From positions 1 through 64,000 of the forward strand of contig NZ_DS981432.1 of assembly GCF_000154845.1 (NCBI RefSeq): a DNA stretch of 64,000 nt, given 5' to 3'. This document shows positions 46,358 to 49,280 of this stretch, one piece after another. How positions within the stretch are numbered: the stretch's first letter is position 1; each line of letters begins with the position of its first letter. The notes beneath the pieces are model-generated. The model did no database searches and had not been told where the DNA came from. It worked only from the letters and a program-made list of their open reading frames with translations. The DNA comes from Phocaeicola coprocola DSM 17136 (lineage in GTDB: Bacteria > Bacteroidota > Bacteroidia > Bacteroidales > Bacteroidaceae). The translations under genes were made by a program, and so were the position numbers.

Positions 46358-46399
46358 TCTGAGAGTGTGTCGTGATGTCTTTCGGGGCACACTCTCAGA
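46358..46399. terminator. Bidirectional terminator
   Basis: A 12-base stem (TCTGAGAGTGTG / CACACTCTCAGA) with T-rich flanks on both strands lies between the convergent porin-like gene and the DUF4435 gene. Confidence 0.8.
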
Positions 46400-46402
46400 T
46401 AT

Positions 46403-47401
46403 TTATTTGGCTATTTTCAGAAATGCTTCTATATCTCGCCGGATCATCTGATAAAGAGGTGATGACTGGTAATGGGGATTTTTACGGATAACCACTTCTA
46501 TATCAACCTGACTACGCTGATAGGCTGTGAGCTCATTATGTAACTGAATGTCGTGTAAAGCTAAATCGTGTATTTGTTGTTCACGTTCGCGGCGGAGTAC
46601 TGTGCATACCGGAATCAGCAGACGCAGTATGACATTGTCCATAATGTGATGCCCTTGAATGAACATGTAAGTATTGTCCGGGTACACTCCCAATGTACGG
46701 AACTCTTTTTTCATATCTTCGATCTCTTCCAGAGCTTCTACATGCCGTCTTTCTAACTCATGAAGTTTACGGTTGACTTTTTTGGACATGATTTCCAGAC
46801 TTTTTTCAGGATGGCGTGTACTGACTTGGTCTAACTTTACGAAAGAGCAGAAATCCAGTAAGGAAAATTCTGATAAATTATGTTGGCGGTAAAACCATAC
46901 AGACCAGATGAAAAGCGGATAGGCTATTTCTGAATAGAGTTTCATGAAGGCAGGAAAGTCAATCAGTTTATGGTCGTTTAGCGTAGCTGTAACACACGCT
47001 TCGTGTAAGCCTTCGGCATAGCAGTGGTAATTTTCTATGGCATAGGCGTACGTCTGTAATACGTAGGGGCTGTTGATGATATACCGTGACGTTTGAGTCC
47101 TTCCTTGAAGAAGATAATCGTAATCACTGTCAACACAGGCTATCATATTTTCTCCCAGACGACTTCCCAGTTCGTTCATCAAAACTGATTTCTTTCCCTT
47201 GGCAAGTGAACTTCGGGATGGCAACATGACTTCAAAGTAACGTTTGTCATTCTCATATTCGACCAGAAGGGAACGCCAAAAAGATATGTCATCGTAACTT
47301 TCTACATATGCGACGATTTTTCTTTTTGCTTGTTTTGGCTTCAGACTGTTGGCTGCTCCAATATAGAGTGAAGAAAGGTTTTCTGTAAGTCTTTTTCCCA
47401 T
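46403..47401 (-). CDS. DUF4435 (Toprim-like) protein, AriB-like
   Basis: A 332-residue soluble protein. A Toprim-like start 'IVAYVESYDDISFW' puts the candidate catalytic glutamate at E34, and 'IACVDSDYDYLL' gives D91, D93 and D95. 'AKGKKSVL' (67-74) is the other conserved DUF4435 block. DUF4435 proteins are Toprim-fold nuclease relatives; in the PARIS defence system the AriB subunit is DUF4435, paired with an AAA ATPase. The ATPase gene lies 12 bases upstream, as expected. The C-terminal half is helical and charged and includes 'FIQGHHIMDN'. A defence role is inference. Confidence 0.8.
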   Translation of the reverse strand: MGKRLTENLSSLYIGAANSLKPKQAKRKIVAYVESYDDISFWRSLLVEYENDKRYFEVMLPSRSSLAKGKKSVLMNELGSRLGENMIACVDSDYDYLLQGRTQTSRYIINSPYVLQTYAYAIENYHCYAEGLHEACVTATLNDHKLIDFPAFMKLYSEIAYPLFIWSVWFYRQHNLSEFSLLDFCSFVKLDQVSTRHPEKSLEIMSKKVNRKLHELERRHVEALEEIEDMKKEFRTLGVYPDNTYMFIQGHHIMDNVILRLLIPVCTVLRREREQQIHDLALHDIQLHNELTAYQRSQVDIEVVIRKNPHYQSSPLYQMIRRDIEAFLKIAK

Positions 47402-47413
47402 AGCCGTAATTGT

Positions 47414-48238
47414 TTAATGAGTAGTTATATCACTTACTTCTGTCACTGCATCTATCCATCCGTTCATAATTAAGGCAGGAGAGTGGGTGGTAAGTATGAT
47501 CTGTACATTAGGGTTTAAGCTTCGGATGAGTGAAATCAACCGTTGTTGCCATTCTACATGAAGAGATATTTCGGGCTCATCCATAAATAGTGCAAATGGC
47601 TGATTGTCTTGTACCAGTACGGTAAGCAAAATGACAAGCATTTGTTTTTCTCCTGATGACAGCTGGTAAGGAGTTAATATATCACCATCTTGCTCGAATA
47701 AGATTTCGTTGCTTCTGCGGTTTATTTTTTTTCCGGTTTCGCTGAAAAGATCATCCATTAAGTCCTGGAATTTTGTTTTGGGACGTGAAACTTCAGCAGC
47801 ACGAGCCTGATCTTCTATAACTCCGCTTGTAAGCAGTTCGATAATTCTGTTTCCGATATTTACCTGATAATCCAGATAGCGACGCTGAAGCAGATATAAT
47901 TGCCAGTCGAGTTCTGTTTTTACATTTGAGTTTCCTATCTTTTCAAGCAGTCCGGAATTGATTAGCGGACGGTCGAAACTACGGATTACGTCAAATCGGA
48001 TGAAATTAGCATCTTCAGGAGAGAATACGAAAGAAACTCCCGGCTGTACGCCATTAGTCAATGCATGCCCTTCCAGTTCGTTAAGATATCGTACGGAATT
48101 GTTCAAAATTGTACTTTTACCAATACCATTTACTCCGCTTAAAATGTTGACATCAGCACGTAAGTCCCATGAGATATTCTTTCTTCCCCATAGACCTTTA
48201 ATTTCGATACGTTTAATGTAGTCGGCTTGCTTCTTCAT
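47414..48238 (-). CDS. AAA/ABC-type ATPase (AriA-like)
   Basis: A 274-residue ATPase of the RecF/SMC-like AAA class. Walker A is 'GVNGIGKS' (35-42), the ABC signature is 'LSSGEKQ' (193-199), Walker B is 'FALFMDEPE' (215-223) and the switch histidine is H252 in 'THSP'. The helical insert between Walker A and signature is short. It heads a two-gene operon with the DUF4435 gene. PARIS AriA and OLD nucleases share this ATPase type; here ATPase and Toprim are on separate genes, as in PARIS. It is shorter than the AriA proteins I recall. Confidence 0.85.
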   Translation of the reverse strand: MKKQADYIKRIEIKGLWGRKNISWDLRADVNILSGVNGIGKSTILNNSVRYLNELEGHALTNGVQPGVSFVFSPEDANFIRFDVIRSFDRPLINSGLLEKIGNSNVKTELDWQLYLLQRRYLDYQVNIGNRIIELLTSGVIEDQARAAEVSRPKTKFQDLMDDLFSETGKKINRRSNEILFEQDGDILTPYQLSSGEKQMLVILLTVLVQDNQPFALFMDEPEISLHVEWQQRLISLIRSLNPNVQIILTTHSPALIMNGWIDAVTEVSDITTH

Positions 48239-48264: not shown

Positions 48265-48296
48265 CAAAAATACGGATAATCTTGGAATAAATCAAT
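48265..48296 (-). promoter_or_regulatory. Promoter of the ATPase-DUF4435 operon
   Basis: On the minus strand ATTG (48296-48293), 20 bases, TATTTTTG (48272-48265): one mismatch from consensus, 27 bases before the ATPase ATG. Confidence 0.65.
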
Positions 48297-48347: not shown

Positions 48348-49280
48348 ATGATAGAAAACATGAATGTAAAAGTTATAAGAGCACATCTTGCTTTGCTGGG
48401 TGCGGCAAGTATGTGGGGATTGATGTCGCCAATGGGAAAGGCGGCCATGGAAGCTGGTATAACCGGATTGTCGTTGGCTACAATGCGTATGATAGGTGGT
48501 GCGGTTTGTTTTTGGATTGCGTCATTGTTTGCTCCGAAGGAGAAAGTTAGTTCGCATGATTTGATGTTACTTTTCTTTGCCGGACTGTTGGGTATTGTGT
48601 GCAATCAGGGATGTTTTACATTTGGTTTGTCGCTTACATCTCCTATAGATGCTTCTATTGTAACTACTACCATGCCGATAGTAACTATGATATTGGCTGC
48701 ACTTTTTTTGAAAGAACCTGTTACACCCAAGAAGGTTATTGGTATATTTCTAGGCTCAATCGGTGCGCTTATGCTGATTTTAAGCAATCAGGGCGGATCG
48801 GTAGATGGAGGAGGCAGCATTTTGGGAGATGCATTGTGCATAACGGCTCAGGTAAGTTTTGCCTGTTATCTGACTATATTTAAGAAACTTATTTCGCGCT
48901 ACAATGTGTTTACACTGATGAAATGGATGTTTACTTATGCGGCTATCTGTTTCATTCCTTTTTCCTACCGTGATTTTTCAGCAATGACGACTATGTCTTT
49001 CTCTGCTACGGTATGGATGGAAGTTGGTTATGTTGTCTTATTCGGAACATTCTTTGCCTATATTTTGATGCTCGTAGGTCAGAAGACACTTCGTCCTACC
49101 GTCGTAAGTATGTATAACTATATACAGCCCATTGTCGGAACTACAGTATCAGTCTTTTTAGGAATGGGAGTCTTTGGCTGGACCAAAGCATTGGCAGCGG
49201 TATTGATTTTTGTAGGTGTTTATGTTGTAACCCAGAGTAAGTCGCGGGCACAGATGCTGGCTGAAGGTGAGAAGGAATAA
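48348..49280 (+). CDS. EamA/DMT family transporter
   Basis: A 310-residue protein with about ten membrane segments in two EamA repeats ('LALLGAASMWGLMSPMGKAAMEAG' and 'GDALCITAQVSFACYLTIFKKLI'). These export metabolites or amino acids; the substrate is unknown. The ATG at 48348 and one at 48360 are both possible starts. TACCTTTG at 48327-48334 is a likely -7 box. The helicase gene follows after 11 bases. Confidence 0.9.
   Translation: MIENMNVKVIRAHLALLGAASMWGLMSPMGKAAMEAGITGLSLATMRMIGGAVCFWIASLFAPKEKVSSHDLMLLFFAGLLGIVCNQGCFTFGLSLTSPIDASIVTTTMPIVTMILAALFLKEPVTPKKVIGIFLGSIGALMLILSNQGGSVDGGGSILGDALCITAQVSFACYLTIFKKLISRYNVFTLMKWMFTYAAICFIPFSYRDFSAMTTMSFSATVWMEVGYVVLFGTFFAYILMLVGQKTLRPTVVSMYNYIQPIVGTTVSVFLGMGVFGWTKALAAVLIFVGVYVVTQSKSRAQMLAEGEKE

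Follow-up and report, generated by a model that had tools for sequence, protein, structure and literature searches.

A PARIS-type ATPase and DUF4435 gene pair that is core and vertically inherited in Bacteroidaceae, with a proposed role in cellular RNA cleavage

An ATPase and DUF4435 pair of the PARIS family

The window analyzed here, a stretch of 64,000 nucleotides from Phocaeicola coprocola DSM 17136 (contig NZ_DS981432.1, positions 1 to 64,000), encodes an ATPase gene and, 12 bases after it on the same minus strand, a gene for a DUF4435 protein. The two genes and the elements around them are listed below.

46359..46398, no strand: perfect inverted repeat of 11 bp in the space where two genes converge; lacks the form of a canonical terminator for the pair
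46403..47401, minus strand: second gene of the pair, a predicted AriB-like DUF4435 Toprim nuclease (ORF of 332 aa with ATG start; Pfam, PADLOC and fold)
47342..47401, minus strand: first 20 codons of the AriB-like gene, encoding the motif L-x(2,3)-[LIVFT]-[NST]-[SAG]-x-[YFMLD], a predicted docking element for the ATPase
47414..48238, minus strand: first gene of the pair, an AriA-like short ABC/OLD-type ATPase (ORF of 274 aa with ATG start; Pfam, PADLOC and fold)
48265..48295, minus strand: candidate Bacteroides-type promoter TTG-N20-TAnnTTTG for the pair, from the consensus
48348..49280, plus strand: divergent EamA/DMT transporter gene, a recurrent neighbor by locus comparison, outside the module

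The ATPase carries a Walker A motif (GVNGIGKS), LSSGEKQ, MDEPE and H252, and the DUF4435 protein carries E34, D91, D93 and D95. Sequence inspection located all of them as the original prediction had claimed, together with the two ORFs and their 12-base gap. The core residues of Walker A, the signature and DEPE are invariant, as is H252, in 48/48 aligned ATPase rows, and the Walker A, signature, Walker B and H-loop motifs are intact in all 138 distinct rows of a set that includes one probable contaminant contig. On the nuclease side, E34, D38, D91, D93 and D95 are present in 167/167 distinct relatives. E123 and H251 are also kept, both in 32/32 rows from a second family described below (f103) and in 135 distinct Bacteroidaceae rows, bar two with E123D.

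Bacteroides promoters follow the consensus TTG-N20-TAnnTTTG, and the candidate lies 26 nt upstream of the ATPase start. Sites of this type occur in 53 of 130 distinct 100-base upstream stretches from Bacteroidaceae, as against 0.7% of letter shuffles. A consensus scan, which does not cover Bacteroides promoters, returned 5 promoter-like sites versus 5.6 expected by chance. The promoter that had been predicted for the pair stands as a Bacteroides-type candidate. The predicted terminator is not supported: on the pair's strand, the inverted repeat is followed by an A-run and not a T-run, and a consensus terminator scan, which takes loops of 3-8 bases, found none at 46359-46398, where the loop is 18 bases.

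Pfam and PADLOC profiles as well as predicted folds place PARIS first, in agreement with the resemblance to AriA and AriB proposed from the sequence. Pfam detected DUF4435 in the nuclease (200 bits, 6.7e-59) and AAA_21 (72.4 bits, 8.9e-20) and AAA_15 (65.1 bits) in the ATPase, and NCBIfam held no family for the DUF4435 protein at E 0.1. The short AriA model of PADLOC (PDLC04164, 253 positions) matched the ATPase at 1.5e-58 over residues 5-273 of 274, near its full length, and the AriB models (PDLC02983/PDLC04165) matched nuclease residues 27-274 at 1.4e-68; both are filed as defense genes and are silent on core status. The pair also passes the published PARIS profile thresholds of 27, 32 and 27 (rule from PMC9122126, in excerpt). 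With 274 aa, the ATPase is as short as first described, compared with 464 aa in the solved PARIS AriA entries.

We compared structure models of both proteins with known structures. For the ATPase (pLDDT 88.3, from a 48-row alignment), the top five matches to the model are PARIS AriA chains at Z 17.5-19.3, with 8ux9_B as the best (Z 19.3, rmsd 4.0, 250 aligned); Septu and retron PtuA come next in the structural comparison. For the nuclease (pLDDT 91.7, from a 68-row alignment), the top two are AriB chains, 8v46_D (rmsd 5.8, 250 aligned) and 8ux9_A (rmsd 4.8, 240 aligned), both at Z 10.6 and at 9-10% identity in the structural alignment. Foldseek gave 8ux9_A as its sole notable match to the nuclease model, at E 1.3e-3, just outside the 0.001 line. 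A DUF4435 protein lacking a Toprim fold, which the original prediction had named as evidence against itself, is not what the modeling returned, the best matches being AriB chains. When the PDB was searched by sequence, neither the AriB-like protein nor its profiles retrieved an AriB chain, and another Toprim-like gene used as query likewise found none, so that residues are mapped to E. coli AriB by fold and spacing only. On that footing, a Lys-rich KGKK lies 34-37 residues past the catalytic Glu of the nuclease, near the spacing of K60/K64 from E26 in PARIS AriB (PMC12409363, in excerpt), a likeness of spacing and not of alignment.

By family, the pair is PARIS, or OLD class 4, and it has every testable defining feature of PARIS: ABC-type ATPase motifs, a DUF4435 Toprim protein with a Glu and DxD metal site, and adjacency of the two genes. 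With PARIS of the E. coli B185 type it has in common the pairing of an ATPase with a DUF4435 gene, the folds of both proteins, and the ATPase and Toprim motifs. The predicted folds also provide the OLD-family hallmark of an ABC ATPase coupled to a Toprim nuclease, and the assignment to class 4 follows from the genes being split, as classed in PMC12796447 (in excerpt).

The same folds could be read as a DNA-maintenance enzyme like OLD or of the RecF/RecR type, whose Toprim part would nick DNA, gated by ATP, in the course of repair or segregation; we consider this improbable. SMC and Rad50 heads do match the ATPase model at Z 13-15, Cran1 is an OLD-family nickase (PMC12796447, in excerpt), and OLD Toprim structures occupy the next structural tier for the nuclease (Z 4.1-4.5; 6nk8 4.5, 6p74 4.3), though unrelated structures score the same Z there. 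However, AriB chains score far above OLD for the nuclease (Z 10.6 vs 4.5), the characterized AriB cuts tRNA (PMC12409363, in excerpt), and no repair gene was seen repeatedly beside the pair among the neighbors, which were looked at unsystematically.

Conservation, descent and losses in Bacteroidaceae

The pair is present as a single copy in its own genome. Across the genus Phocaeicola, the nuclease was found in 58/61 genomes (36 of the 37 good ones), the 57 sequences other than the window's being 56-85% identical and free of internal stops, and across Bacteroidaceae it was found in 192/199 genomes and in 22/22 genera; among the matches listed, which are part of the family total, a few are weak (G065, E 2.1e-44) or fragmented (G069). 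The best 80 of 556 relatives' named loci come mostly from Bacteroidaceae (Bacteroides, Mediterranea, Paraprevotella and Prevotellaceae MAGs) and include two MAGs labeled Clostridium and Roseburia. An order-wide sample contained nuclease relatives in 23/295 genomes, of which 5 are Bacteroidaceae, 3 belong to f103 and 15 to other families, and a phylum-wide sample contained them in 4/296, three of these again Bacteroidaceae. Outside Bacteroidaceae and f103, relatives are sporadic. The survey that had been suggested to decide between a core and a variable locus across Bacteroidales thus returned a core locus in two families and sporadic occurrence elsewhere in the order.

An accessory, mobile distribution is typical of PARIS, though not defining, and it is not what we observed for this core pair, which differs from PARIS in being core and vertically inherited and in that neither phage records nor viral contigs contain a core-like copy. 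None of 50,697 phage records matched, and viral contigs held three relatives at 29-38% identity. Two plasmid records do carry a core-like copy. We took the B. finegoldii record as a piece of chromosome because meaB, a DMT transporter and a mechanosensitive channel surround the pair, and assigned the P. massiliensis record, which has no annotation, to the chromosome by guess. Separately, in family f96, all three sampled genomes of genus g117 (G327, G411 and G478; loci L050, L051 and L049) carry an ATPase and DUF4435 pair at ~30% identity, possibly another fixed lineage.

The arrangement of the pair is uniform. The ATPase adjoins the nuclease in 32/32 Bacteroidaceae loci with 6-17 kb of context, and the EamA gene is directly divergent to the pair in 12 of them, from 7 genera. 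Within a collection of 161 Bacteroidaceae loci, which overlap and amount to 134 distinct nuclease sequences, both genes are present in 160, the remaining stretch being only 3.7 kb long. In these 160, from which a contaminant contig was left out, the two genes are always on the same strand with the ATPase first (160/160; median gap 14 bases), and the ATPase directly precedes the nuclease in 158, the other two having gaps >1 kb. The genes are separated by 1.4 kb in L208 and 1.8 kb in L210, and L208 has an opposite-strand gene between them.

We compared the descent of each gene with that of a species marker, MrdA, which was used because PurH, dropped as a marker, is split in 13/27 Bacteroidaceae genomes. 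The AriB and MrdA trees have 14 of 19 Bacteroidaceae splits in common (at most 2 in 300 label shuffles) and 13 of 26 overall, with a Mantel r of 0.956 over 29 genomes and of 0.64 within Bacteroidaceae. Agreement with MrdA within Bacteroidaceae is weaker for the ATPase (9/19 splits, r 0.36), which counts against the cellular role proposed below. In the genus and near relatives, dN/dS is 0.015 for the ATPase (33 pairs) and 0.028 for the nuclease (25 pairs). Over 49 shared pairs, in which some genomes are counted twice, the medians are 0.012 for the ATPase, 0.024 for the nuclease and 0.032 for the neighboring EamA fragment. As for PurH itself, only its N-terminal ~200 residues match in genomes such as G061, G064 and G068, and a separate partner of 390-450 aa lies elsewhere; this bifunctional purine enzyme seems to be split into two genes in these 13 genomes.

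Seven of the 199 Bacteroidaceae genomes have no nuclease match, and a profile search agrees for all seven. One of them, G208, was rejected as a true loss, since its ATPase is present and the contig ends 244 bases later, which makes it an assembly gap. The other six are also without a convincing ATPase ortholog (best match 9.8e-9). The pair is cleanly missing between EamA and the mechanosensitive channel gene in G102, and G048 has an EamA-like gene (54% identity) without the pair. In G143, G151, G166 and G213, three genes (747, 394 and 449 aa) occupy its place between the same flanking EamA and mechanosensitive channel genes; in G151, these are aconitase, isocitrate dehydrogenase and citrate synthase.

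L332 8513-13338 (also L333, L334 and L335): replacement of the pair by three genes in four Bacteroides-type genomes

With both genes gone from six genomes, the pair is therefore dispensable over evolution and is lost as a unit. In this it behaves as a defense pair would, which speaks against a cellular role. Altogether, the pair is core and vertically inherited in Bacteroidaceae, with some losses. This bears out the guess of a chromosomally fixed relative; the original prediction had also cited, as an outcome that would tell against it, a core locus that is fully conserved and leaves phage growth unaffected, and the core part of this description applies, with the losses noted.

A second family carrying the nuclease mostly without the ATPase

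In f103, at a guess Rikenellaceae, the nuclease is present in 109/112 genomes and 16/16 genera at 34-41% identity. A search for the ATPase gave any match at all in 58/112 genomes and a convincing ortholog in only 11/112, ten of them at E <1e-50 and the eleventh, G601, fragmented (8.6e-34); the other matches are short or weak. We discounted the ATPase (77%) and nuclease (73%) matches of G549 as probably due to contamination. The ATPase is not beside the nuclease in five of the 11 ATPase-bearing genomes: the two genes lie 50 kb apart in G610, 153 kb in G614 and 152 kb in G615, and on separate contigs in G613 and G616. No second AriB stands beside the unlinked ATPase in G610 or G615.

In a tree of 32 f103 nucleases and 7 outsiders, the 22 rows from genomes without AriA form one clade (97/98) nested within AriA-bearing rows, pointing to a single loss of the ATPase. 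The N-terminal motif of the nuclease follows the same division, being present in 10/10 AriA-bearing and 0/22 AriA-less f103 rows (shuffles 0.5%); it is also found in 132/135 Bacteroidaceae rows, where the other three are near-misses by eye. Since the motif pattern was written after viewing the sequences and the loss was one event, its correlation with AriA is a lead that counts as one independent observation. The AriA-less nuclease has a dN/dS of 0.07-0.08 in three pairs above 85% identity. The median over the 28 pairs whose dS falls within 0.1-1.2 is 0.36; 23 of these pairs share less than 65% identity, a range in which dS is unreliable.

These losses bear on whether the pair could be kept by selfish addiction, as a toxin-antitoxin-like unit in which loss of the inhibitor kills. 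The effector and inhibitor architecture of two genes would suit such a unit, and PARIS has been placed among toxin-antitoxin systems in a commentary (PMC11455837). Yet AriA was lost while AriB stayed in f103, the joint absence in G102 is clean, and deletion of either PARIS gene is non-toxic in E. coli (PMC9122126, in excerpt), so that we regard addiction as highly improbable. From the E. coli deletions, a lone AriB is not expected to be toxic. The retention of a lone nuclease throughout a family, with an intact active site, nonetheless asks for a use that is independent of AriA.

The solitary f103 nuclease has no recurrent neighbor in the loci read, and there may be a replacement partner for AriA in this family. 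In two loci from two genera (L317 3740-8981, G615; L319 4284-8975, G610), the nuclease follows mnmG and an acyltransferase gene; these are two cases only, both in genomes that keep an unlinked ATPase. MnmG acts in tRNA U34 modification, and E. coli AriB targets tRNA-Lys(UUU), which makes the position of mnmG before the nuclease suggestive.

Proposed cellular role and the immune alternative

In known PARIS systems, AriA hexamers hold AriB, and triggers such as Ocr bind AriA (PMC11455837). For the pair described here, we propose, by a slight balance of probability, that a PARIS-type module was domesticated for cellular RNA cleavage, with the ATPase as its regulator. A PARIS-family (OLD class 4) pair would have become fixed in the chromosome of a Bacteroidaceae ancestor and would now hold a cellular job. 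The AriB-like protein would act as a two-metal endoribonuclease on tRNA or other structured RNA, by analogy with AriB and RNase M5. The AriA-like protein would be an ATP-dependent regulator, docked via the first ~20 residues of the nuclease, that tunes or licenses cleavage on an internal cue instead of a phage anti-restriction protein. In f103, the nuclease would have been freed from ATPase control and would work alone. Extended to both families, this becomes a phage-defense tRNA-cutting enzyme domesticated in two forms, one the ATPase-controlled core ribonuclease of Bacteroidaceae and the other a free-standing one, likewise core, in f103, where the ATPase and docking motif were mostly discarded; we put this extended form forward tentatively, as a nearly balanced possibility that leans toward doubt.

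Two known enzymes are instructive for the proposed cellular role. RNase M5 is a Toprim ribonuclease with a cellular job in RNA maturation and an AriB-like active site (PMC12409363, in excerpt), but it is a monomer, and its likeness to the present nuclease does not come from direct comparison. Cran1, which like the present pair joins an OLD-superfamily ATPase with a nuclease, is conserved throughout Sulfolobales and, according to its report, apparently has no antiviral role, and thereby offers a precedent for a cellular role (PMC12796447, in excerpt). It differs in being archaeal, a DNA nickase and apparently essential, whereas the present pair is dispensable over evolution.

Alternatively, the pair could be a genuine PARIS-type immune guard that has become fixed, its short AriA sensing a phage protein and releasing or activating AriB, with tRNA cutting and growth stop as the outcome. 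That the published profile rules are passed, that the best fold matches are AriA and AriB, that in Bacteroidaceae both genes are retained or lost together and that the N-terminal motif is tied to the presence of AriA would all fit such a guard, and we give it an appreciable if minor probability. Several observations run counter to it. The pair is core and vertical, unlike the distant second DUF4435 genes that we found in 10/61 Phocaeicola genomes at 21-30% identity, some of which have BREX and methylase genes, a conjugation gene or an integrase as neighbors. Moreover, the ATPase, as presumed sensor, is the more constrained gene of the two, and the nuclease is retained without it through a whole clade of f103. 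We therefore favor the cellular reading over the immune guard on account of core status, strong constraint on the would-be sensor and retention of the lone nuclease, although constraint would be expected of a core immune guard as well.

If the extended form is true, many "PARIS" calls in gut Bacteroidales would correspond to a housekeeping locus and not to immunity. Profile rules of the published type treat an ATPase and DUF4435 pair as anti-phage (PMC9122126, in excerpt), and calls of this kind are in print as defense, both for the Bacteroidales-rich "Rst_PARIS" of gut MAGs (PMC10924106, in excerpt) and for an expressed PARIS call of B. thetaiotaomicron jmh43 (PMC12135933, in excerpt). A locus that is core in Bacteroidaceae would probably account for much of such a pattern. 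A cellular role would also connect a tRNase of immunity with the normal RNA biology of dominant gut bacteria, and would provide a natural experiment on effector control, with the same nuclease found with and without its regulator. In the partial texts consulted, we recognized no paper describing a PARIS pair of Bacteroides as core or as housekeeping. What sets the pair apart is that its ATPase is short, that it is inherited vertically as a core locus and that one clade lacks AriA.

The accessory DUF4435 copies of Phocaeicola were characterized through their neighbors, which were read by eye at 9 of the 10 loci, with Pfam run on a few. Pfam identified a TraG conjugation gene in L313, a phage-type integrase in L312 and the genes of L315 described next; others of the accessory loci show no clear island. 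In L315 (1490-13081, G019), an accessory ATPase and DUF4435 pair stands between BrxC-type and Eco57I-type methylase genes, with SIR2 beyond; judged by its gene content, this is a PARIS-like pair inside a BREX-like locus. L309 (7809-8804, G042; DUF4435 Pfam match 2.1e-16) and L313 (7929-8924, G025) contain a distant DUF4435 gene among conjugation-type genes and without a recognizable AriA neighbor, which we read as a mobile solitary AriB relative. Finally, on E. coli and Klebsiella plasmids of 4.4-5.4 kb (L342 and L344), an ATPase and DUF4435 pair accounts for a large share of the plasmid length.
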